From: Planoprotostelium fungivorum
Taxonomy: Eukaryota; Evosea; Variosea; Cavosteliida; Cavosteliaceae
Direction: 5' to 3'
Assembly (NCBI GenBank): GCA_003024175.1
Contig: MDYQ01000109.1
Location: forward strand, 24,852-88,851
Length of the DNA: 64,000 nucleotides
The notes under the pieces are model-generated. The model did no database searches, was not told the origin of the DNA, and saw only the letters and a program-made list of their open reading frames with translations. The translations under genes and the position numbers were made by a program. Below are positions 791 to 50,446 of this stretch, one piece after another (positions within the stretch are counted from its first letter, which is position 1; each line of letters starts with the position of its first letter).

Positions 791-3171
791 ATGGATTCTC
801 TTCCAGGAATCTTTCGGTCAGAGAGAAACCAAGAGCTGCTGCTCAGAATACTCATTCTCGCGCTGATCTATGTGATCGCATTCTCAACTCGTCTTTACTC
901 CGTACTGAGATACGAGTCGGTCATTCACGAGTTTGACCCCTACTTTAACTTTCGCTCCACTCAGTATCTCGTGAATGAGGGTTTTTACAACTTTTTGAAC
1001 TGGTTCGATGAGGGCTCCTGGTACCCACTGGGACGTATCGTTGGAGGAACCGTATACCCAGGTCTTATGATCACCGCCGCCGCTGTCTACTGGGTCCTGA
1101 ACTTCTTCAACATCACCATCAACATCAGAAACGTATGTGTCCTTCTGGCACCCTGGTTCGCCTCTAACACCGCCATGGTCACCTACTTTTTGGCCAAGGA
1201 AGTCAAGAACACAGGTACCGGTCTCTTGGCTGCCGCTCTCATCGCCATCGTACCTGGTGAGTGTTTCTGAAAGATATTCCATATTGACTTGGTGAAGGAT
1301 ACGTTTCCAGATCTGTGGCTGGATCGTATGATAACGAAGGTATCGCCATCTTCACCCTGTTGTTGACCTACGCCATGTGGGTCAAGTCCGTTAAGACTGG
1401 ATCTCTCCTGTGGTCCGGTTTGGCTACCCTCGCATACTTTTACATGGTCTCTGCTTGGGGAGGATATATCTTCATCATCAACCTCATCCCCCTGTACGTC
1501 TTTGTCCTCCTGGTCTCTGGAAGGTGTGTTCTAGGTCCCATCGCTCTGTTCCATTCTACTCCATCTTCACTACCATCGACTAACATGGAACAGATACTCT
1601 TCCCGTCTGTACATCGCCTACTGCACGTTCTACACGATCGGAACGCTGCTGAGCATGCAGATCACCTTTGTGGGATTCCAGGCCGTTCAGTCCTCGGAGC
1701 ACATGGCTGCCTTCGGTATGTTCGGTCTCCTCCAGATCTACGCCTTCCTCAACTGGGTCCACGCTCACCTCTCCAACGAGAGTTACAACCGTTTCTTCAA
1801 CGTCTCTGTGGCCTCTCTCGTCGGTTTCTTGGCCATCTCTTTTACTGCTGCCACCGCCACGGGATACATCTCCCCCTGGACTGGAAGATTCTACACTCTC
1901 TTGGATCCCACCTACGCCAAGGAGAACATTCCCATCATTGCATCTGTGTCGGAGCATCAACCCACCACCTGGGCTTCCTTCTTCTTTGACCTCCACGTCC
2001 TCGTCATCCTCTTCCCCGCCGGTCTCTACTTTTGCTTCAAAGACATCAAGTCCCTCGGTGATGTCAAGGACGACAACCGCACCGATGCCAAGATCTTCAT
2101 CATCTGCTACGGTATCACTTCCGTGTATTTCGCTGTGAGTCTATTCCTCCATAAGGTTCACCTCTGACGTAGAGCAGGGTGTCATGGTTCGTCTGATGCT
2201 GGTGTTAGCCCCCATCACCTGTGTGGTGGGAGCGATTGCCATCTCGAGTACTCTGGAGAACTACATGAAGCCACTCAAGGCCAAGAAGACCCCAGGAGGA
2301 AAGAACGCAGAGGGCACTTACCCCATGCAGCAGGAAGTCAGCTTTGCTGTCATCGCTGGTCTGGTGGTCATCCTCATCTTCTACACCTTCCACTGCTCTT
2401 GGGTCACCTCCGAGGCCTACTCTTCTCCCTCCATCGTCCTCGCTGCCAAGCAGAACGACGGCTCTCGCATCATCTTTGACGATTTCCGTGAGGCCTACAG
2501 ATGGTTGGACATGAACACCGCCCCCAACGCCAGAGTCATGTCCTGGTGGGATTATGGTTACCAGATCTCTGCCATGGCCAACCGAACGATCTTGGTGGAC
2601 AACAACACGTGGAACAACTCCCACATTGCTCAGGTCGGAAAGGCTATGTCTGCTACGGAAGACAATGCCATCAAGATCATGAGAAGTCTACACGTAGACT
2701 ATGTCCTCATCTTGTTTGGTGGTCTCACCGGTTACGCCTCCGACGACATCAACAAGTTTTTGTGGATGGTTCGTATCGCTGGTTCCACGGATCCTTCCAT
2801 CAAGGAGGAGCAGTACTTCACCAACGGTGAATTCAGAATCGACGCCGGAGGTGTGTCATCTCTCCTTCTCTTCTTATCCGTCTCTTCTTCCTCTCGATCT
2901 CTTCTTCCTCTCGATCTCTTGTATCTGCTGGATGAGACTGACGTTGATAGGATCCCCCGTGATGTTGAACTCTCTGATGTACAAGATGTGCTTCTGGAGA
3001 TTTGGAGACTTGTACACGGAGCACAACAAGCCACCCGGATGGGACAGAGTCAGAAATGTTGAGATCGGAAACAAGGACTTCACGCTGGAGCACATCGAGG
3101 AAGTGTACACCACACAGCACTGGCTCGTTAGAATCTACAAGGTCAAGGATGTCCCCAACCGTGGTGTTTAA
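791..3171 (+). CDS. STT3: Oligosaccharyltransferase catalytic subunit STT3
   Basis: STT3 transfers the lipid-linked oligosaccharide to Asn in N-X-S/T sequons in the ER lumen. Five exons fit by frame: 791-1256, 1298-1523, 1594-2134, 2178-2850 and 2951-3171, giving 708 aa, the normal STT3 length. The N-terminal half is a run of hydrophobic segments. The external-loop motif FDPYFNFRS is present (metal and substrate binding). The hallmark WWDYGYQ motif, followed by NRT and DNNTWNN, lies near 2545-2610. The C-terminus ends KVKD.PNRGV as in animal STT3. The fourth intron (2851-2950) carries a direct repeat of a CTCTTCTTCCTCTCGAT unit. No RING, anchor or other extra domain is attached. Identification is certain; whether it is the A- or B-type is not decidable here. 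Confidence 0.97.
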
Positions 3172-3334
3172 TGTAGTCAATACAAATCAACAATTCGTAC
3201 TATTTATCCAGCTTCTCACAAGGATTGCGTCTGTCTGATCGGGAGAAAGTTTTCTATCTTCATGTGTCTGTCTTCGCATCTCATCTGTTATGGAACCTGT
3301 CTCTCGTCATACTCCTCTCTCACTGAATGATGAC

Positions 3335-4192
3335 TCACACGCAAGACTCGTAAGTGGGGATCATGTACTTGATGTTGATGAAGGCATCGTCACCACCGTG
3401 CGTCTCTAAGATCTCCAGCGTCTCTTGGATCAGATCTCCGATGTTCTCCTGCTTTCGCTGGCTGTAGTCTATTTGATCACCGATATTTGTGTTCTTGCTC
3501 TTGAACAGATTGAACATGGGAAGAATCTGTCTGTAGTACGGCACCAGGGCCTCTCCGATCATCTCCGCCGATAAAACGAGTTGTTGTATGATGTGGAGAG
3601 TGGTGCACACGATCTCTGGATCTCTCGTGTTTAATGCCACTGGAGACGATGAGTCTAAGAGGAGGAAAGAAAGTCACACACTCTTGATGGGGAGTATGAG
3701 CTGGGGAATGACGGGCAGAATCTTTGATCCTCCCTTGCTCAGCAGATCTTTGATTCCTTCACGAGCCAGAAATTTGTGTGGTTCTTTCGGCTCTCGCAGA
3801 CCCTCGAAGAAGATGGGGAGGTAATGATGATAGTCCAGCTTTTCGATCTCAACCTTCCACAGCACCTTGTTTCCGGTAGCGCGATGCTCTACTGATACGG
3901 GCATGTCTCCTCGTTCATAAAACTTGGAGAAGTTCGTTGCCTCTGCCTCTCTCTTCTGGAAGGCTCCCGCAATGGGTGGTTTGGGAGAGGTGGCCTCCTA
4001 TTGTTGATTAGAAGAAATGTTCTCAGTGACTGGTCTCTTCACCTTTTTTGTTGATGGTGTGGGAGAGCTAGTTCCAGATGGCTTGCGTGTTGCAGAGGGA
4101 GAGGAGGAATTCTTTGTTGCCGTCGTACTCTTACTGGGAGAGGATGTAGTTGTGGCCTTCCTCACAGTGACAGGTGACTTTGTTGAGCTCAT
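3335..4192 (-). CDS. PACRG: Parkin co-regulated gene protein (PACRG)
   Basis: PACRG bridges the A- and B-tubules at the inner junction of axonemal doublet microtubules. Three exons on the minus strand (4192-4043, 3997-3682, 3639-3335) give 256 aa. The first encodes a basic Ser/Thr/Pro/Lys-rich tail. The second and third are the alpha-helical-repeat core, recognised from [45 protein letters not shown] and the C-terminal [13 protein letters not shown], close to animal PACRG throughout. The 45-bp first intron removes an in-frame TAG. Presence of this gene implies that the organism builds, or recently built, a motile cilium. The next gene starts on the same strand about 2.3 kb away and looks functionally unrelated. 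Confidence 0.95.
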
Positions 4193-4401
4193 GCTGGCTG
4201 ACTTCTGTCCTGTCTCTATGTATTTTCCAAAATTAGCACCCCCGGAGGTGTAGATCTATTTCCGAAATGCTGAATTTAAAATATAAATTTGAGACTGGAA
4301 CCCATGTTTCGCTCACCTCTCGAAGAAAGTGTTGTTGTCACCATTCGATGGAACGAACAATCGAGATGATCCAAATTATATGCATTTATTGCTACATGAG
4401 G

Positions 4402-6497
4402 TTACTCTGGAGGAATGTGTGACCTCTTGCTGGGTCGAGGGAGTACAACCTTATCGATGTATATGGCTCTCTCAAAGTGAGCAATTCCTTCGTCATCATC
4501 CAAGGTGGGTGGAAGACCTTCTTCAATCACGACAAAGTCCTCGTCTACACTCTTCTCTTTTCCTCCTTCCTCTCTCTCGTCCGTCTTGTTCGGGCTCGTC
4601 GACTGTTCTGTCGTGGATAACACCGAGGATGCGAGGGAATAGCTGCTCGCACTCAACCAATTGAATATCGATCCGTATCCAACCGCTGTACCTTCAACAT
4701 CAGACGAATCTCTTTCAGATGACTCACTCGAGGGAGATGCAGATGCTTCAGAATGGGTCGTTGGTGTGGAAGGGTTGGTGATAAGAGTTGATTTGGGTGG
4801 GGTGGATGCAGTGGGGATGGGTGTGGTTGTACTCGTGGATGGATGGGATGGATCGTGTGAGGGTGCGATGGCTTCGAGGGTGGTGTCGATGGAAGAAGGA
4901 AGGGAGAAGGCGGTGAAGGAGGTTGAGCGTGGTCTCTCGGTTTCTGGCTTTGGGGCCTTGAGTGCATGCGTCGAGGATCGTTGTCGGTGTGTCTTACGCT
5001 CTCTGAGAGGAATGAGTACAAGTGAATCCATAAATGAAGAGGATCTGAAAGATGAATGGTGAGAGGAATGAAAGATTCGATCACCCGTGGAAACCACCAA
5101 AGGAAGAGGAGAGAGAGAAGGAAGAATGATATTCATCACTTCTGGCGGGTGGTGGAGACGCTTGATCAGGTGGTTGATCACTGTTCTCGATCATCATCTT
5201 TCCTATTCTATATCTCATTCGTATGTACAGACCTTCCGAGGTTGGGTGATTGTATGGCTCTGATGAGGTTGGGAACGGTACTGTCGTGATCATTGCTGGA
5301 GATGTGTACCCCCTGTGACCCACACAAATGAACTACATTCCAATTCAGCATCTCTAAGGCGATGTGGAATTCGGGCTCGCTGTGATACAAGAGATATTTC
5401 CTTCTGTTCATTCGATCAATTCAATCGGACCTCAGAATCATTCTCACTGAGAACCCTCCCTCCATATGTAAGATCGAGAGCCCAGAAACTCTGTCTTGTA
5501 TGGAAGAGGCACGTTGACATAGCCGGATAATGAAGCCAGGATCTGTAAGATGTGACTGATTCCCGTGGCTACGATCTCCGGTGGAAGATCTTTCCAGTGT
5601 GAGAGTGGGTGATGGATGAAACTCACCCTTCCATTGAGTGTAATTATCCTTCAGTCTGACGTTCAATACGTAACATTGTTCTTCGGTGTAATTCTTCAGG
5701 GGGAAGAATGATACGAGCTCTGCTACGAGGTATTTTCGGTTGTGCATTAGTTGGCGTATCTTCTGTTCACAAGGGACTCGTACTTTATCTACATTCAATA
5801 CATCCATTATGTCTTCCCCCGTTCAGTTTCACACTTGAAATTATCCTCACCCTTATTCCTGTCTTTGACCAATCTCTCGGCGACGTCCAAGGCATGGCTT
5901 CGGTTGCGATTGTTCGTCTGGATCAGTTCGGTCGTCGCTTTGATATCTTCCGTCTGCATCTGTAATGAGAGAAAGCGCTCTTGACATCTGTTTGTGCGTG
6001 CCTTCGATGAATTGATCTGATCCGAGTCAGTGAATCATCATCGCGTCTTCCATACCTCTTCTCTCCTCGTAACGGCAGACTTTTCCTTCTCTATTTTGGC
6101 TTGGACTTGGCTGCGTAATGTGTCATTTTTCTCTCTCATTCGATGGAGCTTTTCCAATTTCGCTTGGATGATGGATAATTGCTCGCCCACAGAGCTGTAT
6201 AAATTGTCAGCTGATGTACGGTTGTACACAATATAGTATATCATGAATTGATTATGATTCTCACTCTTTGACACAAGAAGAACAGAGAGACCTCCGCTCT
6301 ATAAAGTTTTGCTTGCAAGTGACGCAGGTGTTTTGTGCGGAAGAGTTTCTTGGTGCATTATCATCTGAAGTAGAATTCCACAGAATCCATTCGCGACTAA
6401 CAGTGAGTTCCTTCTTTCTCTGGCCATTACTGTCTTCCGAGCTCTGATCGATCGTTGACATACCCAAAACTGCGCCACAAGAAAATGCACACACCAT
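4402..6497 (-). CDS. ATG14/UVRAG-like subunit of the class III PI3-kinase complex
   Basis: ATG14 and UVRAG/VPS38 are alternative subunits of the VPS34-Beclin complex that make PI3P for autophagy or endosome traffic. The chain has three parts. An N-terminal double CxxC motif (CVTC then CSSC, about 6280-6340) matches the ATG14 Cys repeats. A coiled coil follows (GEQLSIIQAKLEKLHRMREK and onwards). The UVRAG/ATG14 fold comes next: ..HNRKYLVAELVSFFPLK, then ISHILQILASLSGYVNVPLPYK, then FHIALEMLNWNVVHLCGSQGV. The LN.N+..LC..Q motif is closer to ATG14 than to UVRAG. The last exon (from about 5180 down) is a long Ser/Thr/Pro-rich tail of low complexity. Several short introns separate these parts and I have not fixed all of them. 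The start is uncertain between 6497, an in-frame ATG at 6461 and a further ATG at 6592. Confidence 0.7.
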
Positions 6498-33670: not shown

Positions 33671-36600
33671 TCAAGAATTTCCAAGGAACTTCCTTGCTTT
33701 TTTGGTTGGTGTTTGTCTTTGTGTCTCCAATTGGCTCTTCTGGGCTGACAGCTCTACCTTCTTCTTTTGTAGATACTCAAGGATCTCCCGTGTGTGACCA
33801 ACCAACAAGTTACCCGATAAAACTTGTTCAAATTCGTAATCCTGTGGTACAACCCCTGAAGAATGCAATGAGGGGCAGCGAATGATTCAAATCTCACCTG
33901 AATCCCACAAGTCAACATCACTCTGTAAGATGATACACAGAGGAACATCCGCTTTTGCCACTTTTGGACTGAGTTGTCTGACCACAAATCTCTTCATGGC
34001 CAGTATGACTTGGTCAGCTGTAAACTGTCCCATGTGAATACTTCACAATCGTGTGAGTCTCACCTTCTTTGTCAGCTCCCATATTGTCTTCAGAATCTCC
34101 TCCGGACACTCTTCTTTGTACCTCGCATCCAGTACGTCGATCATCCTCTCTGATGCCATCTCTTCCATCTTCTGGTACAGATCCACTACGTGCTCCAATT
34201 GAACGTTCTTCATCTTGGTGAACACATCAGGCAGTAGCCCTACGTCACGACAGTAGCTGAAGACGGATTGATCGGCCCTTCCTCCCGTCTGTTTCAGTAG
34301 ACAGAGGACGCAGCTCAGAGTCTGCATGGCCGATGTGACTTCCTGGGGTGGCATGTTGACCAGAGACATGCAGGGTCTCTGTGGTACCCTCTCTCTGACC
34401 TCAGACAAGAGATACGATGAATCCTGGAAGAGCTCTCCGCTGAAGGTCATGCAGCGAAGGTGATCGCAGCGGATGAAGACCTTGTTGATGGACAAGATAG
34501 CGGTCAGCTCTCGATCGATCCAGTGCCAAGAGAAGTGTGGAGCGCCTCCCTTGCCGTAGGTGAGTGAGTTTCCACCAAAGACAAGGACGAGTTGATCGAC
34601 GCTCTCCTTTGTGATGCTGATGACACCCTCTTCTGTCAGGTCCTGAGCGCGAATGGGGTCACGTGTGGCCTCCGTCATCGTGGAGCTGTGCTGGGATAGA
34701 TTCTCCAAGAAGTTGTTCTGAAGATCGGAGAGGTAATGGAACATGGCCGAGATATAAATTCCACTGTCCTTGGTATCCACACAGGCGAGAGAGATAGGCT
34801 GATTGGAGCTCATCTTGGGGATTGAGTCCTCCTCGAAGATGTGGCACTCATAATTGCGTACGTGAGGTCTGACGGTGTTCCAAGCACTCATGAACTCTTC
34901 AAAGACTGTCTCCACCCGATCATTGATCAACGAATTCATCGGTGTGTCCACTGCTCCTTGTCTCGTGATGCGATTTCCCAAAGTGGAAGCCACGTAATTG
35001 GACCATTTGACCAGAGGAGGGAGGTGCTTAATCAGATCGAGAGTCGTCCAATGGTCTGAGACGAGTCCGATGACAGGGTGCTCCTGCATGACTCGAGCGT
35101 TGTCACGGTAACTGACTTCGAAGATGTCCCTGTCGACATCCAATCGTATACGGAATAATTGAGGTAAGCGAGGTGCATCCTCCGAGTTGTAGTGCAGCGA
35201 GTCCGTCTCATTCAATTGGGCCTGGAAGAGAGAAGGAGCTGTCCTGGAGATGTCCTTCCTGATGATCCCGGCCGTCTCCCTGGGAGACGAAGTGTACTTG
35301 GAGCAGAAGGTGGAGAATTCAGCTTCCCACAGCTCCCTTCCCTGAGAGGTTTCCACGGTCCACCCTTGAGGCTGAAATTGATCCAGGTGACGTATGAGTT
35401 GGTGAAGAGTCAGTGATAATTCGTCTTCCGTGACAGTGGGAAGGAGATTTCTGAGAGTTCTCCAATCGGCCAGACAGTGTTCCCAGCAGGAATTGGGACT
35501 GTTCTGTACACAGAGGTAGAGGGTGGAGTAGACCAAGAGGTGCAAGGTGCGATAGACGATGGGAGTCAAGCTCCTCGCGGTATGATTCGCTTGTTCGTTG
35601 GGTGTATCCTCCTGGAGCCCGGCAGCTTGATGGGTCGCAGCGACGGGAGAGGCATCCACTTTGGTCTGATCCTGCGTGACACCGATGGGAGCCTTACAGC
35701 CCGGACAGGTACCCTTTTGGTTGATGTTACCACAGTCTCCAATGAGATAGGGGTGATTACACTTGTTGCATCTCCATCGTGTGACTGGACCTCCATTGGC
35801 CGAGATGGCGCTGATGATCATTCCCATGACATCGGAGGGTGTTCCGGGTACAAATTGTCTCAGGACGGAGGTTGGGTCTCTGTACAGTCGTTGGAAGAAT
35901 TGGTTCTGTCGAGATGTTGTGAGGAAGATTTGAAGGTGGTGGATCAAACTGAGGAGGTGCACGTCCCGTGGAGGTGTGTCTTCCAGATAAGATTGTACGA
36001 GATCTCGATGAGATGCATGACAAGAGGGTAACACCTGTTGCGAGGTCACGTCATGTGATGTATCAGATGTCACCTCTCGAATGCATTGTCCGATTCTCTC
36101 CCTTCTCGGGTGGTTGCCACCCAACCAGTAACATTGTACGGTCGTTGCCAGGAGAGCGACCCCTTGTCCATCTTCGATCACAATGTCCCTGAGAGGGCCC
36201 ACGTCACCCTGGATGACTGCAAGGTCCAGGGCTTCTTCTAAGCGAGAGACCCGTGGGAAGTGATTGAAGGGTTCGTAACCCAATCCAATATCTGACTTGG
36301 AAGCTCCATCCTGGAACCACAGGGGTCGATTGATGAGCTCCTTGGCTTGTTCCAAGGAGACGTTACGGCGCAATTGTTTGATGAGGAGGAGCTGGAGTGA
36401 TCGGAAGATGGGGGATTCACGATCGAGTCGAGAGATTTCATCAGAAGCCTGTGTCAATGCATTGTCATCATCTACAACGAGTCAGTGCCGTTCGACGATC
36501 GATGTCGATTCACCATTGGAAAGAAGATCGTGGATGTCTCGTACAGTTCTGCGAGCCAATACAATGTTGTACAGGAGTTTCCAAGTGAGCTGGCCTCCCT

Positions 36601-39600
36601 CGTACATTTGTAATTCCGTGGGATCGAATTCACCGGAGAATTCTTGGTTCTCCATGACGTCACAGAGAAGTACGATGCAGGGTGTGATCTCTGCAGCGGT
36701 GGGAAGGAGCTCCTCTACCTCGTGGAGTACCGTGTTTGGGCCCAACTGTAACGTTCCATTGTCATCCTCTTGTTCTTCAAAGATGCGTCTCAGAACGGGT
36801 CCGAATACGTCGACGTGTGGTCCCTTTGATACGTCATCTTACGTCATTCTGTATTATTTTCCTCACCTTATACTCAAGTATGTATCGCAATATGGTGGGG
36901 CTGACGTCCGATTCGGCATTGAAGAGTCGATAGAATGCATCAGATATGAACTGTACCACCTCTCTCTCTAATTCTTCAGATGTCCCCGTGACTACATCCA
37001 GCATGTCCTCCAATAGCAGTTGATCGATGACCATATCCTCCGTTCCCATGGCTGCCAATCGATGGAGCATCGCTCCACGAGATCCGTTCTGCAGGACCAG
37101 ATCGGAGAAGAAGACCAAGACTCTCAGCCAGGTGGCCTGAGGAGGTTCCGTCGTGATGTGAGGGGGCCACACTCGAGTGAAGACGGCAACTGACTTGTCC
37201 ACCTTATCTCTCCACCTCGACACACCCTTCTCCTCCCTCAGAATGTCCGAAGGCATGAGAGAAGAGAGGGAGGCAGTCAGAGCTGATGTGAGGTCTTTTC
37301 CTCTTTCGAGAGAGAAGTGTGGATCGGCTGCGATGAATGTCTTGACGAGGTGATAGGCGGCTCGGATCTGTTTCGAATGGCTCCAGAATTTGACGTGCAG
37401 ATCGGCCACATCGGTGGCGGAGAAACAGTGGGACACGATGGTCTCCAGGGTCTCGATGTCTGCAGACGGATTGGAGTCTAACTTGACCAGTTGATAACGG
37501 AGGAAATCTCTTTGATACGCTGGAAAGTGGACCTTGTACTCTTCTCTCTGGAGGATGTTGTGACCGTTGTTGATGACGTTCTTCATCTTTGAATCGATGA
37601 GATCTTCATCTGCCATCTTCCTCTGCTCGTACATTGTCTTCAGCATCGATATCTTCTCTATCAACGGCTGGGAGAATGGAAATTCCATTGAAATCACCGG
37701 ATGATTCAGTATGTAATTCTCCTTTCCCTTCTCTGTGTGCACATTCGACGTGTCCACAGTGGTAGAATCGTTGTACCAGTGATGCCACAGCTCCATGAGT
37801 TCCTCGTCCATGGTCATCAGTTGCTCCAGAGCGCTGCACTTCTCCAATACGAAGAGGAGCTTGGAGATGGGCACCAACGCGGCTTCTCTGAGTCTCTCCA
37901 CGATGGCATCCGAGAGGGTTCCGTGCATGACCAGCGCCCCCCTGTCTCTCGCCACCTCTGCCATCCACTGATTCGTCGTATCATCTGACACTCGATCTGT
38001 GACGTGCTCCTTGATCAATTGGAGCATTCTGGGATGTGAGCATATTCCCTCCTTCAATCTCTTAAACCTCTCCGCACTCTGGTTGTGAGGGTGGTAGGCG
38101 ATGGACAGGAGACACCTCGGTACTACGTCCTCCATGATCTTCTTGAAGGGCAGAACTTCGTTTCGCATGATATCTCTCAAGCTCTGATCTCTGAAGATGT
38201 CCACCGGATAAGCTGCGGCGGAGATTCGATCGAGAGAGATCTGAGGCCAACCGCAGAGGAAATCGAGGCACCAGCCAGTAGAATCTTCTCTCCTGACGTT
38301 CCTCTTGTAGTGAACGAGGATGATGATTCTCTTGTCGAAGGATGATTTGATGGAGTCGATGTGATTCTTGATGGGTGCGATGTGTGAGCCGTTGGATTCG
38401 TTGTCGGCCTGGAGGAGGAGCAGTCGTTTGTTTCCGTTGAAAAAGTCATCGAGAGTTCTCGTCATCTGTTTCTCGCTGTTGAACGTTCCCAGATTGACGA
38501 TCTGCGTGTCTTTGTCTGTGATGGGTGAGATGATCATGTGACGAGTGAGACGATGATGTGATGGGAGACTCACCGATTTCATCTCTGAGATCATCCAATA
38601 CAGACGATGAAGTGAGGATGATACCATCCTCTTGGCACATGGCGAGGGCTTCCCTGAGGCACTTGGGTTGAGTCCTCCAGTACATTTCGCTCCATCTCTT
38701 GACTTCCTCGTCATCCAATCTAGAATCTGCGGCTCTGACGATACCATCCTGACTGGACACCGTGATGAGCTTCTCCTTGCATCTCTCCAGTAAAAATTCT
38801 TCATCTTCCTCAGACTGAGCCATGTGGTGTACCAGAGAGTACAGTGTGTCTTCATACATTCCGTAGAAAAGGTCCTCGGCTTGGAATCTCTCTCCCTTCG
38901 CATTCCTCTGTTGACTGCTAGTGGTGATGTCTGTGACCCACTTGTCCAATCGATCGTACACGTTCTGATGTCTTACATCCATGATCTCGTGGAAGGTGAG
39001 ACACTGCTTCTCGAATCGATTGAGGAAAGGAGGATCAGCAGAGGGGACTTGAGACTTTTCAATGAGGATGATGCAGCGGAATTGATCGTGGACGTAGCAC
39101 ATGGGGTTGTAGTGAGGGCCGAGAGCCACGCGGCAGTTCTTTCGGTTGCCCACCACGGTGTAGTTCTGGTTCAGCATGTCGTAGAGACTTCCGTACACTT
39201 TCTCTAGATCCTATCACCATTCAGAATTCATCACGGTCGATTGGATCTCATGATTTGTATTAGATGAATCACCATAGATACCCATTGGATGATGGGTGAT
39301 GGAAGGATAATTCACCTTGAGAATGAGTGTTCCGGGGCTCTCCATCAACAAGATGATCTTAGAAAGAACACCGTAGAGATACTCCTCCGTCTGATCTTCT
39401 GGGTACAAACTACCGTACATCACGGTGGGCTCTGTCTCCGTTGGAATTAACTGCTTCAAGATGGGAAGAGCGGCACTTCCGTGGGTGATGACAAGGAGAT
39501 GCCTTCCCATCCGATCCTTGATGTTCTCTTCGATCAGTTTCACCAAGGGAGAGGCAGGAGGTACCTCTTCAGAGTGTCCGAGATGTGTGAGGAAGAGGTC

Positions 39601-42600
39601 TTGAATGTGTCTGATTTCCTCTTTCAGTCCTCCGAAATTCCTCTGCAGGGCGTGGCACACGGACTCCGGGCTGAAATCCTGACGCTGAGCCAACGACTTG
39701 ACCAGTGAATAGTAATCTCTCAGCCCGTGGAAGTTCTGTTGTCGCTGTTCCTTCTGGTATCGATAGTACGCCTCGGCGAGAGCTCTGAGTGTCTCTGGAC
39801 TCTCTCGTCCTCCTCTCATGACACTCTCTTGGATGCACTGAGCCGTGATGAAGAGATCCTCTGCATCTGGTTCTGGTCTCGCCACGTGCACCGCACGATT
39901 CATCTTGGAGGCATCTAACGTCCAGTTGGAGATACCGACCACGGCGATGCTGCGAGAGTCTTCTCCTTCGAGGAGACTGTGGAGGACCTTGAGGGGGTTG
40001 AAGCTCGATTGCTCGGCCAGACCGACTTCGTCGAGGAGAACGACGGGAATGACATCCGAATTCGATCGAAGGTAGTTCCTCGCCTTTTCAAACACCTACA
40101 CTTGTGAGAGAACATCGATGTGGAGATCCATGTGACATATAGACGGGAGACCATCAGAGGAGAGGTTAAGAATTTTACCTTCAGAATACCGTCCGAATTG
40201 GAAGACTCTGATCCCTGGAACGCCACGAGATAGATCCCCGGGTATTTCTTGAAGAGCTTCGATTTAGAGTCCGATCCCCTGAGATTGGCATTGATCAACT
40301 GCATGGAGAGACTCTTGGAGCATCCGGGTTTTCCCACCAGGAAGATGGGAATGCGATTCAAGATGCAGACGAGCAGGAGGAAGACATTCTCCAGCAGGGC
40401 CGTGTTGAGAGCGATACCATCGGGTAGCTCCATCTCCTTGAGATAAGCCTTCTGCTCGCTTCTCAGAATGCCAGAGAATATTCCTGGAGTCATCTTAACC
40501 TCCTGGTAGATGCTGGCAATCTGAAGATGTCAGATGAGATGATGCCTCGATCTTCACCTCAGAGATCATCTCGCGATATTTCAATCGATCGTTTGGGGTA
40601 CTCAATCGACTGTAATAGCAGTGACCTAGGGCCAAGATGATGGGACGCAAAGCTTCTGTCTTCTTGTCCTTCTTGTTGACCGCGTTGTTGGTGAACCACT
40701 GAATGAGCACCTTGCACCTTACAGGATCTCTCAAGCTGACGCTGTAACTTCCTTCTCTCTCCCGAATGAATTCTTGAGATCGACACACCATGGCCGTGAC
40801 CATATTGTGCAGTTTGTCTGATGGCTTGAAGGCACCTTGTAATATGGTTCCAATGTACCTCTCCTCCACATCTGGATGAGACGTACCGTAATCCCACACG
40901 TAGTCCATCAGTGATTCGGGTAATGGATGCACTCGGTACACCAACTCGGACATTGGATCGTATCTCTTCTTCACGTACGACAGTCCACTGTCCCTCTTGA
41001 CGTGGGTCTTTCTACAGTAAGGGTTGCAGGCTGCCATGACGACGAGATTCTTCGGTAGAGGCTTGCCCATGCAGGTGTGATCGCAGATGATCTCGTTGAT
41101 GAGTCCAAGCTCGTCGCAGGTGTTGATCTCATCGAGGAAGACCCACACTTTTCTCCTTTTTGCCTCTACTGCCTTCTGAACGGCTCCCTCCATGAATTCG
41201 ATGAGGTGAAAAGAGGTGATGCCGGCGTGGATGTTGAGATGTAAAAAGTCTGCGTTGGAGATGCGGCTGAGGTAGTGGACGAGGGAGGTCTTACCACACC
41301 CCGTGTCTCCCATGAGTACGACTGGTATGCCGGAATTGATGCGTAAGAAGACCAATACCATCTTAACAAAGTTGTCACCGGTCAGGTTGTAGTCGGGGAT
41401 CTTGACATCGTTTCCGTTGCAGATCTTGTTCAGCTCTCTCCGGAGGAGATCTGAAGATAGGGAGTTGAAGTCCCTGAGTCGATGTTTGTCCTTTCCTTCA
41501 ACATGCTGAGAGGCGAGGAGCTCTCTGACCTGCTGAGGTACGTGCTCTGGCACACGGAAGATGGCCCCGATGGTGTTGACGTCCTTCTGGTGGAAGAGGA
41601 GGAAGAGGTGATCGGTGTCTGTCCATCTCTGCATGTTGGACATTCTCTCCACCATGGCATCCGTCGCTGACAGTTCTCTCCTCTGGCTCTCCTTGGCCGC
41701 CTCCACGGATCGAACAGCGAATCTGCGGCAGAGTTGAACGAGAGATCCGACCAGATCCGATCTGACGTTTGGATTGCTTCCCATGTCCTTCAGATTCTTC
41801 ATGGTGAAGTATGGACTGTGAGCGAATCGATCGAGTTGAGGGTATAGCACGTCGATGAAGATGTGGAGACGAGTGAATGAAGGAGTGTCTCGGATGCCCT
41901 CATCATCCAGGAAGTAATGTCTCAGGAGCGCGCGACACTGTTGGGGTGATACGATGACATCGGTGGCTAGCTCTTCGCTGGAGAGAGTGCCCTGACGGAG
42001 GGCTTGGAGGTGTCTGCAGACGATCTGTATGGGAGAGCGTGGATGAGAGGAAGTGATGATGTTGTCGGGATTGAAGGCCAAGTGATGGGATTTGAACCAT
42101 CGAGAGAGTGGATACTTTGTGTTCAACACGTTGTTCGTCGATGTGGTCATCTACCATGAGTCAGGGAATCCTATCATGAGGACAAGATCACACCTCGATA
42201 GCTACAAATAGACCATCAGGTAGGCTGTATGCACCTTCTCCGTGTACGACCATCATCCCCATGACGAGTAATTGGAAGAGGATGTGTCCCAGAGATACTC
42301 CATCATCCACATCCGATAAGACGAGGTGCAATCCGCTGTGTCCCACGGTCTCGTGCAATTTCAATTCGATGAGTCGGTTCATGATGATCTTGGGATCTAC
42401 TGTTCCAGATATGGGAAAGGTGATGAGACCCAGATTCCTCTTGAAAGCTTCGTTTCTGACCCACTCTGTCTTTCCTAGACCACACACGGTGGATGATACC
42501 AATACCACGTGTTCCGTCACTGATGATAGAGGTCCTCTGAGTTCGAGATCCACGTCTAATCTTCTGGTAGAAGAGGAGAACTGCTCCATGATGTGATGTT

Positions 42601-45600
42601 GGGTGGTCGTGTGTAAGATGAGGGAGAGACGGAAACCTCCGTATCGGGCTGTCTCTTGTTTGATGCGACGGACCAGATTGCTCTGCAGATCGAAGGGCAG
42701 ATGCTGAACGTCTGCCAGTACAAAGAGTCTCTGGTCACCAAAGCATCGATCGAGAAAGATGTCCAATTGCTCCTCCGTCTGGGTCCCCGTGCAGTACTGG
42801 ATCTGTCGTGCGTGGGGTACGTATCCTTCATTTCCGTAGAGGGATACGATCGTCTCTTCGATTCGATGTGGGTCTCTGATGGCGATGACGAGAACTTGTC
42901 CCTTGTCGACGGCCGTGTGGATGTTGTCCACCTTCAGTGGGCGCAGTGGATTCACGTCTCCCTGGTCCTGGAAGATGGCATCTAGGTTCTCGGCCAATCG
43001 CTTGACGTTCTCGTTGGTGTCTTCTGATGCCTCGTAGAGAGGTAACATGGCTCGAACGACATCCAAGTTGATGTTGGGCTTGGCAAACTTGAGGAGGTGA
43101 CCTATGGGTGTGTTGTGTAGAGTGGAGGGAGGAGGAGAGGATAAGAGCTGATGGAGGGGCCACAGCTGCTTCGACTCAAAGTGGCAGGAATAGATGGAGT
43201 GTCTACGGAGATCGGTCAACGTTCGAAACCAAGACTGTAGATCTGATGAGAGTTGTTCTTTCGTCTCATCGTTGACGTGGATCTCATGGTCATAGTATCG
43301 AGGGTGACCCGATTCGTTCAGCTCGTGGAGAGCGTACAGTACGTCCTGGTATCGGTCAGTGTGGAACACACGCCGTACCAGAATGTCACCTGCATGCGAT
43401 TGACGTTCCGTATGAATTGTTCTTCCATGGCAACGTCATCCTTCTTTCCAGAGTTCATGATGAGGAGAGCTCGACTCTTGTAATCGGACAGCTGCTCCAT
43501 CTCGTAGTGGGCGTCTGCACATTCCATCCTTCCTCTGGGTAGGCCATTCTTCACAATGGCGATGTAACGGCTGTCACCATCGGTGGCCTTCTGAATGACA
43601 TCTCTCGTGGCTTGTCCTCTGTTGGCGATGCTCTTGTACAATCTCCTCAATCCTCCGCTCATGGAGCTACACTGGTTGATCTTGGCATCCATACCCTTCT
43701 GTGACTTGGACAAGAAGGTGATCGTGTGATCCAAGGTGGAATCGGCATTCATGACATTGGAGAGGAAACTCTTCACTTCGATGAGAGAAGAGACGGCCTC
43801 AGCCCCGATGAGCCCCTCCGTGTGTTCCTCCACGGCGTAGATCAAGTGTCTCGCATCATCTCCTCCCATCTCTCGCAAGAAATCAACGAGATCTTCCGCT
43901 TGGGACAGCATGCAAAGGAGGGACCGAGTCGATGGAGAATCGGTACGAGATAAAGTTTGCTTCAGGTTGTCGACTCGCTGATGGTATACACGGAAGTCGG
44001 TGGAAGGGTCACGGCAGGCTGAGAGGAATTCTGTGTCGTTTGAGACGTCTCATCATGAGTGCAACCACACCTTCGACGATGGTTCGGATCTTATCTGTCT
44101 GATGAGGGCACATCAAGTCGGCTACTTGAATGATGGACTCAGCCCATTCGAGGTGAGAATGAAGAGACAAGAGATCTCTCATCCTCTGTCCATCGTTCAG
44201 TCTCCGGAGTAGGGAGTGATTCTCACCTCTACATCCAAATTGGGTAGTCTCTTCTTCATGGTGTCCAGTTCAGATTGGACCCTCTCTGGATGTGTGCCTT
44301 TCCATAAGACGGAGCAATCTGTGAGGAGGATAGATCCCTTTTGGCATCTCTTGATCATGTCATCGTATCTCTGTATGGCCTCGGGAACTTTCTCTACGAG
44401 ATCTCGGACAGCTGGCTTGGAGTCTCCGATGATCTCTGATAAGATGCGTGGGAAGCTGGTGGAGCCAGAGAGGGAAGAGAAGGTCAGTAGCTGATCGTCT
44501 GGTGGAAAGACATCCAATACGTCGTCGAATGAAGCTAGAGATACGACGGATGTGCGTGGAAGCTCATTCTGCTTCTTGATGAGGGCAGCCATGAACTAGA
44601 GGGAATGAGATGATAGCTACCGGTCGAATGTCTGTCACCTTTGGTTGATCTGAAGCCATGTCTCTCCATGTATCCAACAGATTCCTGATGATCAAGGATC
44701 GCTGGGTGTATCTCTCTATGACGGCCGTGTACTCATCAAACATACCGATCTTGACGTTCGCCTTGACAGCTTTCAGTAGATCTGACGTATTTGAAACTGC
44801 CTTCAGACTGCGAAACTCTTGCACGGATATCGTTCTGGTCTCCAAAGATTGAATGACTGACTCCACTGACTGTTTGGCCTTGACGTAATTTGGATGTCTC
44901 TGGAATTCGAACGTTCCGTGACTGTTGAAGAGAGGGACCCACACATCGTGATGGGAGATTACGTCCTTGAGGTCTTGCACCTTCACATGTTCCATCGTCA
45001 CGTTCAGTGCGTGCTCTTGGTAACTGATGAAATTTAGAAGAGTAGAGGAGAAAGGTTACCAGTTCATGGTGCGAACGACAGAGGAAGGAAAGATGGCATT
45101 GAGATGCTGCTTTGGGGATGTGATCTTGATGTCACGGATTCTGTCCAAAAATATACAATTCAGTGTGTCGTCTTCCATGACTGGGATCTGTGGCACGATA
45201 AGTTGTGAGATGGATTCAATTTCACCTTCTCCAACGATCTGAGAAGATCGTCGTCAGCCCACTTGCTGGATTGTTCTTCCATGACACCAAGTACGGCCAC
45301 TCTACAATCCTCATCCGTCACGACCGAATGGATGGTGGAGAGGTGTTCGCAGATTTGAGGGATCCCGCGTATGTGCGCCCGGTTGATCCACAGACGGATC
45401 AACTCTGTCATCTTCTCGCGTTGGTATACAACGGTCAGGCTCTGATAGAAGAGAGTTTGAATCTCCGCTGGAGGAATCGGACAATTGTCCTTCATATCGA
45501 ATAGACAAGTGATGACATCTGAACCACTCAGAACGCTTCTCCTTCTCCTCTCACCGTGGGCCATCTCAGAATCGATCATGAACCGATAACACAGTGCAGC

Positions 45601-46868
45601 GAGTTCTTTTCCATTGATATTTCCCCACTTGTATGACTTGGCCCACGACTGAAAGGCTTGGAATACTCTCCTCCGCTGGCTGGAGCTGGGTATATTCTCC
45701 AGTAGCCACAGAGAGGACGAGGGTTGGAATGGAATGAGTCCTCCATCTACAATGCGGCGAGGAAGATGTTCCGGTAAGGTGGCCATGGGAGGCATGTCTC
45801 GTTGTAATTTTGTGTAAAAAGTAAATACATTGGGCGCCACGTTCAAGAGGTGGGTGAGGAGCATGGGACGGTCTCCCATGGTGACGTGGGCGATGACCTT
45901 GTCCAAGTGTTCCTCGAAGGACTTTTCATCTCCTCTGTATATTTCGGTGCGGTATTGAGACAAATCTCTGACATGGATGAATCGGAGGAAGTCCATCCAC
46001 TTGTTGCCCGGCTCTTCGAGGCAGCTGTCCTGTACATATTTGCGGAAGTCTCTCTCCAGGTTCTCGGGTATGATCATCTTGTGATGTTGACCAAACTGCT
46101 TGAAGAATTCGGGCCTGTCATTGGGGGACTTGTATAAGACGATGCGGATGAAGAGGTAGAGGTGAATGTGGCTGTTGGCTTCAGAGGATCGCAGGAAATC
46201 TTGAATTCGTCTGTCATCGACGACGGACGACAGTTGAGGAAGAAGGGAGAAGACATAGAGCCTCTCATTCATTCCTCCCTTGGCAATATCTAAGATGATG
46301 ATCAGATCAGATGATGATGAGCATGTGATCGAGGGTGGAAGATGAATTCCATCAGATGGTGGGTGAGTGACGACGTGTGATCTCACGTGGAATGTTTCTC
46401 AGAATATTGAGATAAGACGAAACGTGGTCCAGCTGACCGAGAGACCGCAAGCCGGGAGAAACAAAGTCCAGTTGTATGACTTCATTGGGACGGCTCCTTC
46501 GGTCTCTTCCGTTCTCGTAACTGTATTCATCGCTGTTGTTCCAATACTTGAATAATGAACCCCAGAACGATTTAGGAATCTCCACGTGATACTTGTACTC
46601 AAAGTTTGGATTGGTGATATGGATGGAGCCTGACATCCCTGAGAAGAGTCAAGGAGAGATGCAAGGGTATGAAGTGCGTCAGGATACAGACTCCGTTGTG
46701 ATGATGCATCGTGACATGTGATGCCTTCCAAGAGCCCAACTCCGGCTCTGTTCCTCTCACAGTGAGCTGCAATGATCTCAGCCGATGTGGACGATCGTAT
46801 CATGAAACACTCGCCTTGCAATCCTTGAGGGTAGAGGGTAACGTCGTCACGAACACAAAAGAAGGCAT
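33671..46868 (-). CDS. Giant RNF213-like AAA+ protein with CBM20 and RZ finger, no visible RING
   Basis: RNF213/mysterin is a dynein-like AAA+ ubiquitin ligase acting on lipid droplets and intracellular bacteria. Exons 46868-46815, 46766-46688 and 46638 onward encode an N-terminal CBM20: MPSFVFVTTLPSTLKDCK, LTVRGTEPELGSWKAS, W, then FEYKYHVEI. A long helical arm follows (46.3-43.4 kb). AAA+ modules come next: SSTVCGLGKTEW (42.5 kb), VLMGDTGCGKTSLVHYL with VWVFLDEINTCDELGL (41.2 kb), and IFLVGKPGCSKSLSMQL with VVLLDEVGLAEQSSFNPL (40.3 kb). An RZ finger lies near 35.75 kb (WRCNKCNHPYLIGDCG..CPGCKAPIG). The C-terminal exons after a 39-bp intron run FTADQVILAMKRFVVRQLSP to KARKFLGNS (stop 33671). 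The total is about 4,000 aa against 5,207 in human. No C3HC4 RING was found between the AAA+ region and the RZ finger. Confidence 0.88.
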
Positions 46869-46980
46869 GTCTGGGCGGAATCTGTACCTCTTGACTGATC
46901 GCTGCTCTCCCAATTGTGATGAACTTCTGTTGCTCTGTGCGCGGCCGTCGACAACAGTGGGGAGATCCATAGTCGACACA

Positions 46981-47050
46981 TTTGGGCCAGTAAATCCATG
47001 CGATTTGGGCCAGTGAATCCATGCGATTTGGGCCAGCAAAATCCCGAGCT
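46981..47050. repeat. Three 23-bp tandem repeats in the bidirectional promoter
   Basis: TTTGGGCCAG starts at 46981, 47004 and 47027. The unit TTTGGGCCAGTGAATCCATG + CGA is near-identical in the first two copies (one change, A for G) and partial in the third. The repeats lie within the 214 bp separating the starts of the RNF213-like gene (46868, leftward) and the RING-UBL-TerD gene (47083, rightward). They contain the palindromic core GGGCC/GGCCC, so they could bind one factor serving both genes. Confidence 0.85.
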
Positions 47051-47082
47051 TCTGCAGAAGTTTGTTTACCTTTTTGATTTCG

Positions 47083-48205
47083 ATGAAGTGCTACACCTGC
47101 TCTGAAGAGAAGCTATCCAAAGAGTTCTTTCTTCATCCTCTGAGTGGGCAGTGCAATCATGTTCCCGATCGATGTTTGAAGGTGCGTCACACCGAGATGT
47201 CACGCTGATCATCTCTAGTGCCTCACAAAAACACTTCGAAAGGAAAAGTCTTGTCCGAAGTGTAAGAGCTCAGTCCCCTCTTCCACCATCCAGAAGATTA
47301 TCCAAACCTTCGACGCACTATTCAGCACCGGTCCTTCGATGACTTCAACTCTCACTGCACCAACGGCGGGAGGATTATGGACCATCACAGTTTCGACTTT
47401 GGATGGAACGTCTAATCAATTCAAGACATCCCCAACCGCTGGAGTAGATTATCTTAAGAAGGAGATTAGCGTCCGTTTGAAAGAGAAACAAACAAAGTTA
47501 CGCCTGATGTTCGGTGCGAAGGAGCTGAGGGTGATGATCTCTATTTTATTTCAATTCCTCATTTCATCCCAATTTTCTTCTCTTCCTCGCGATGTTCAGC
47601 TGACAATGTCACAGAACAACACGACCCTTCAGGAATATGGAGTGAGGGATGGTTCTTCTCTTCAAGTTTTAGTCCTCATGATGGAGGATTTCAGTGGCGA
47701 AGCGTACAAGCAGCTTCACTTTGATCTCAACTGGGGCTTTCCGGACGCCGGTGCTGACTATCTTGACGGAACCTGTCTCCTCTTCTCCAATCAGAATCAC
47801 AGTTACTCTGCAGACTACGAGCGACAGAGACCCATCCCGGCCGTCACACACACCGGAGACATCATCGACATGCAAACGTTTCGAGGTCATCACGGCATCG
47901 ACGTGGTGCTATCACAGATCCCCCAGAGCATCACCCACCTCTACTTTGTCCTCAGCGCTTGGAATTCACCCTTCGTATCGAAGTATCCCAACCCCTCCGT
48001 CAGCCTCGCCAGCGTAGACCGACCGAACGTAAACTTGTGCAGTCTGACGGTCTCTGAGGCGGGAAACGTGCAAGCCATCATCATGTGCAGAGTCGAGAGG
48101 ATGGAAGAGGGCAAGTGGTCCGTGCAGAAGGTGGCTAAAGGATGCAGTGGAAACGCAAAGAACTACGCTGCGATCATCCAAGCCATTCAGCAGTTGCAAC
48201 AGTAA
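47083..48205 (+). CDS. RING finger - ubiquitin-like - TerD fusion protein
   Basis: Three exons (47083-47181, 47219-47530, 47600-48205) give 338 aa, all joins in phase 0. The protein starts directly with a C3HC4 RING: C3, C6, C24, H26, C31, C34, C45 and C48 (CYTC..CNH..CLKC..CPKC), expected to bind two Zn and recruit an E2. Residues about 60-135 are ubiquitin-like (WTITVSTLDG, YLKKEISVRLKEKQTKLRLM, TLQEYGVRDGSSLQVLVLM). From about 140 to the end is a TerD domain: LHFDLNWGFPDAGADYLDGT, RPIPAVTHTGDIIDM, GIDVVLSQIPQSITHLYFVL. TerD proteins are known from bacterial tellurite/stress loci and from Dictyostelium CABP1. The first intron interrupts the RING between LK and CL and is 37 bp. Choosing a later Met (47339) would lose the RING. 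Function is inferred: an E3 ligase whose TerD part senses stress, Ca2+ or a ligand. Confidence 0.88.

Positions 48206-48287: not shown

Positions 48288-50446
<2,159 letters not shown>

Follow-up and report, generated by a model that had tools for sequence, protein, structure and literature searches.

A predicted gene of Planoprotostelium fungivorum joins a RING finger, a ubiquitin-like domain (UBL) and a TerD domain in one protein of 338 residues. It lies at 47083–48205 on the forward strand of the window, the 64,000-nucleotide (nt) stretch of contig MDYQ01000109.1 analysed here, and all coordinates are window positions unless another contig is named. In bacteria, TerD domains occur widely in loci for stress responses and defence against phages. 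The parts of RING-UBL-TerD are all known, but their combination is a new architecture. The content and order of the three domains follow from the predicted translation, and the fold of the TerD part from a structure model. We lean, on slightly better than even terms, towards a RING ubiquitin ligase (E3) with an N-terminal RING, a middle UBL and a C-terminal TerD domain that recruits a substrate or ligand. The new and most telling result is that TerD is coupled with predicted ubiquitin-system domains at all three TerD loci found in this genome. The parts of the gene are as follows.

47083..47181, forward strand: exon 1, with the start codon, residues 1–33 and five of the eight RING ligands (C3, C6, C24, H26, C31), from translation and a pattern with its controls
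47089..47266, forward strand: RING finger, C3–C49, across intron 1, with H26-x4-C31 spacing, from Pfam, pattern, PDB and alignments
47182..47218, forward strand: intron 1, 37 nt, GTGCGT...CTAG, the sole RING-like join among 25,523 GT-AG joins
47219..47530, forward strand: exon 2, with the remaining RING ligands (C34, C46, C49) and the start of the UBL, from translation and Pfam
47384..47674, forward strand: UBL, residues 89–162, across intron 2, lacking a Gly-Gly end, from Pfam PF00240 and PDB ubiquitin alignments
47531..47599, forward strand: intron 2, 69 nt, in frame and open, 72% pyrimidine, from the gain in ubiquitin score on splicing
47600..48205, forward strand: exon 3, with the end of the UBL, the TerD domain and the stop codon, from translation, Pfam and the TerD fold
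47681..48202, forward strand: TerD domain, residues 165–338, GDDE motif absent

An earlier note on this DNA, made from the letters alone, had proposed three exons, a 37-nt intron at 47182–47218 and a protein of 338 residues with all three domains in one gene model. Translation of the three exons returned exactly 338 residues and a stop, and the domain searches support the combination. The ATG at 47083 is the earliest in frame past a stop at 47014 and stands two codons ahead of the first RING Cys. Both introns begin with GTG. As GTG donors were also found in five of the six introns (39–49 nt) of our model of a second TerD gene, on contig C65, and, by eye, at three introns of the adjoining Hsp70 gene, both introns look ordinary for this genome. 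Retention of intron 2 is less likely, as the Pfam ubiquitin score was 28.8 bits with the intron kept and 32.3 bits when it was spliced out, then as a single match over positions 1–69 of 72. Immediately upstream of the gene, at 46979–47042, short repeats GATTTGGGCCAG were seen by eye.

All eight RING ligands (C3, C6, C24, H26, C31, C34, C46 and C49) are present in C3HC4 order, and every one of the seven cysteines in the first 85 residues falls on a ligand position. The strict RING pattern fails because the H-to-C spacing is four. When the pattern was loosened to x2–4, post hoc and with the sequence already known, shuffling the first 85 residues 200,000 times produced a single match, and no unspliced match occurred in the six frames of the window. 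Across 25,523 GT-AG joins (30–80 nt, both strands, window ends excluded), only the 37-nt join at 47182 matched. The shuffle, six-frame and join controls reject a chance RING. Local alignments to the RING stretches of RNF123 (score 69), an equine herpesvirus (62) and RNF213 (60) each scored above 1,000 of 1,000 shuffles. With RNF213 the lowest of the three, the idea that this RING is a fragment split off RNF213 is unsupported. A phmmer search of the PDB gave weak RING alignments, to RNF123, RNF8, RNF4 and BRCA1 (E 0.09–0.2), and its top match was the non-RING protein COA6 (E 0.054).

The ubiquitin-like fold that the earlier note had read in the middle of the protein was borne out by Pfam PF00240, which passed its cut-off of 25.4 bits in the spliced protein and reached 36.9 bits with the domain piece alone. 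No Gly-Gly was found at the end of this domain, where the chain continues as LVLMMED into TerD; the UBL would therefore not be conjugated. The C-terminal part had been called a full TerD domain. This is right by fold, as the structure model has the TerD fold, but the Pfam score stays below its cut-off of 25.3 bits (22.8 bits, and 23.9 bits in the genome search). In a single comparison with the TerD domain of the C65 protein, the match reached E 6e-20 at 26% identity. A PDB profile search with both TerD domains gave E 8e-10; this is not independent proof for the domain studied here, because the C65 domain alone reaches 8e-9. The acidic GDDE motif, which follows H-x-GD and has a role in calcium binding, is missing in both of these TerD domains. 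It occurs in every one of 80 bacterial loci, a set picked by likeness to one bacterial TerD (590 confirmed, 80 kept). A first scan of bacterial genomes had given no matches, and the second used a bacterial TerD as lead. In a tree of 35 rows the domain falls beside the F-box TerDs, a placement that we do not trust because the branch of the domain has a length of 10.

The idea that the fusion came from a virus or phage was rejected. Viral contigs held no relative of the whole protein and none of the two-TerD alignment, and phage records gave no match to this TerD domain at E ≤ 1. The C65 TerD domain matched 3 phage and 2,530 plasmid records, all at below 60% identity. The stress or pathogen trigger that the earlier note suggested is a conjecture from the known roles of bacterial TerD, and the GDDE motif usual in that family is lost here.

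Searching the genome (36.9 Mb, 471 contigs) for TerD returned three loci. When the whole protein was searched against the genome at E ≤ 10, three of five matches lay on its own gene and the remaining two at the other TerD loci, and none of the five came from a RING or UBL paralog. The other two loci are these.

Contig C65, L009 1540-4900: E2-like/F-box/TerD fusion, 1036 residues by our splicing
Contig C158, L010 ~3100-5560, reverse strand: near-copy of the E2/F-box/TerD gene, with F-box and TerD seen

In the C65 protein the Pfam models UQ_con (55.5 bits), F-box-like (30.7 bits) and TerD (70.4 bits) all pass their cut-offs. Its ubiquitin-conjugating enzyme (E2) domain aligns with Rad6-type enzymes and keeps HPN and ICLD stretches, so that the catalytic stretch appears kept. 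The C158 near-copy has an F-box at 32.6 bits and a TerD match of 26.5 bits over 66 residues; extra sequence parts the two, and the gene may thus be interrupted. Ubiquitin-system domains therefore occur at three of three TerD loci found, two of which are related by duplication. Because the other TerD genes also carry ubiquitin-pathway domains, a bacterial-type module seems to be wired into the host protein-tagging machinery. The C65 protein and the RING-UBL-TerD protein have a common layout, ubiquitin modules first and TerD last, which suggests that ubiquitin ligases of this lineage use TerD as a receptor module in more than one kind of design. The three loci offer a direct handle on TerD-bound partners and ubiquitinated targets. 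As a post hoc curiosity, an HSP70 gene lies near two of the three TerD loci. One, at 48288–50287 on the reverse strand and presumably mitochondrial-like, is downstream of and convergent with the RING-UBL-TerD gene; the other, at L010 1-975 on C158, encodes a protein ending in HDEL. By our grouping the genome has about 15 HSP70 clusters.

Upstream, the RING-UBL-TerD gene stands head-to-head with a giant gene resembling RNF213, of which the exons were surveyed only.

34046..46868, reverse strand: RNF213-like giant gene, putative ATG at 46868
35669-35791, reverse strand: RZ finger of this gene
40681-41766, reverse strand: AAA match of this gene
46869..47082, no strand: gap of 214 base pairs (bp) between the two putative start codons

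The gap may hold a shared promoter. The AAA core of the neighbour, dynein-like, matched RNF213 chain 9jwg at E 1.7e-38 (residues 129–490 of frame 40498-42150, reverse strand), and its RZ finger scored 38.0 bits (cut-off 27), with E 2e-4 against the RNF213 RZ region. An N-terminal CBM20 match was weak (17.6 bits, cut-off 23.3) and lies on an N-terminus joined over two assumed introns. Apart from that of the RING-UBL-TerD gene, no C3HC4 pattern was found in the six frames or over one 30–80 nt intron. Just four C-x2-C motifs occur in the three reverse frames of 34046–38972, and two of them belong to the RZ finger; an intron-split pair could escape these scans. Since a PDB search with the frame 36837–38972 gave no RNF213 match, the expected RING position could not be placed by alignment. 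According to the available part of PMC11549300, it is the RZ finger that RNF213 uses to ubiquitylate pathogens, and the RING can largely be dispensed with; the available part of PMC7311170 describes the RING as dispensable for auto-ubiquitination. A RING-less RNF213-like form is thus plausible. An RZ search of the genome gave two places, the second of which (G000:C452:156110-156247, L098) scores 84.1 bits, above the RZ finger in the window. The giant gene also contains a possible GC-AG intron of 48 nt (46767–46814, reverse strand). Because the divergent neighbour is RNF213-like, an antimicrobial role for the fusion becomes more plausible, yet unproven. As the RNF213 family ubiquitylates invading microbes, the divergent gene makes an immune role testable.

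In the mechanism that we favour, the RING would bind a charged E2 and stimulate ubiquitin transfer. Recruitment or sensing would fall to the TerD beta-sandwich, which would bind a substrate or small ligand with no acidic GDDE loop like that of the bacterial domains. The unconjugated UBL could regulate the protein itself or provide a docking site, such as one for the proteasome. Several observations weigh against this reading. The H26-x4-C31 spacing is unusual, one above the textbook x2–3, and four Pfam RING models, run on the full protein and on the N-terminal piece, all stay under their cut-offs (7.9–17.5 bits against 27–31). A hydrophobic E2 contact is usual between the first two RING cysteines; Y-T sits there instead. 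With the whole protein alone, the PDB search returned no TerD chain up to E 1, and no TerD model matched it in NCBIfam. Exon 1 is a predicted exon, and its codon usage is neutral and uninformative, as 54% of 6,807 random open 99-mers reach its score. One old fusion may also lie behind both TerD designs, and the tree join is too long-branched to trust.

Alternatively, the RING-like domain may bind zinc yet lack E3 activity. The protein would then be an adaptor that makes protein contacts through its zinc finger and UBL and binds a ligand through TerD. The low RING scores, the long H-to-C spacing and the Y-T pair fit this explanation, as does NCBIfam, whose only match was rad18 at 12.5 bits against a cut-off of 175. 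However, the complete and ordered set of ligands and the alignments to the RNF213, RNF123 and herpesvirus RINGs count against it, and we regard the adaptor as unlikely, if a serious contender. The earlier note's complete C3HC4 RING, beginning at residue 3 and split by an intron, holds for the ligands but fails on strict spacing and Pfam score. The RING makes its step to an E3 ligase a fair one, and the E2-like/F-box and F-box domains encoded at the other TerD loci strengthen it. Least probable is a start at Met 47339, or an internal transcription start, that leaves a UBL-TerD protein and the RING exon unused. The neutral codon usage of exon 1 would allow it, but the single RING-like join falls at the right place and in the right frame, an in-frame ATG lies just ahead of the first Cys, and short introns with GTG donors are usual in this genome.

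The two head-to-head genes might instead encode a defence pair of ligases, one acting through the RZ finger of the RNF213-like ATPase and the other, the small RING protein, guided by TerD. The 214-bp arrangement, the AAA and RZ matches with no RING detected, and the action of RNF213 on pathogens through its RZ finger speak for such a pair. It is a single case, though, compact genomes often place neighbouring genes divergently, and the RING is no closer to that of RNF213 than to those of RNF123 or the herpesvirus; we think this pairing very unlikely. Hardly less doubtful is the wider proposal that TerD is a dedicated ubiquitin-ligase receptor in two or more dissimilar architectures (RING-UBL-TerD and E2-F-box-TerD) and that RING-UBL-TerD acts with the RNF213-like protein in cell-autonomous antimicrobial defence. 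If true, the ubiquitin system would have taken over a module that serves stress responses and phage defence in bacteria.

Our preferred RING ligase with a TerD receptor has partial counterparts in known systems. Polycomb RING1/PCGF proteins with RAWUL likewise have the RING first and a ubiquitin-like fold later; they are not known to carry TerD. RNF213 shares its AAA core and RZ region with the neighbour and resembles that gene, not the RING-UBL-TerD gene; RNF213 has a RING, whereas none was detected in the neighbour. In agreement with the earlier note, which knew of no described eukaryotic protein of this kind, the architecture was not found in the literature searched on TerD and the ubiquitin system (RING, F-box, Ubc), a coverage that excludes most subscription papers, and the available parts of PMC3710099, PMC7159879, PMC3188802 and PMC8123226 do not describe it. 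Dictyostelium capA/B are likewise eukaryotic TerD proteins, placed under horizontal gene transfer in the available part of PMC3188802 and cited for cAMP binding in that of PMC8123226. These passages mention no RING or UBL for capA/B. Bacterial TerD (Pfam PF02342; Klebsiella TerD 2kxt, Streptomyces 3ibz, 2qz7) differs from the domain described here, which is fused to RING and UBL, lacks the GDDE found in all 80 loci examined and is 16–24% identical to the bacterial rows. The C65 protein and its C158 near-copy likewise place a C-terminal TerD behind ubiquitin-system domains, and the 1036-residue C65 protein differs in having an E2 fold and an F-box in place of RING and UBL.
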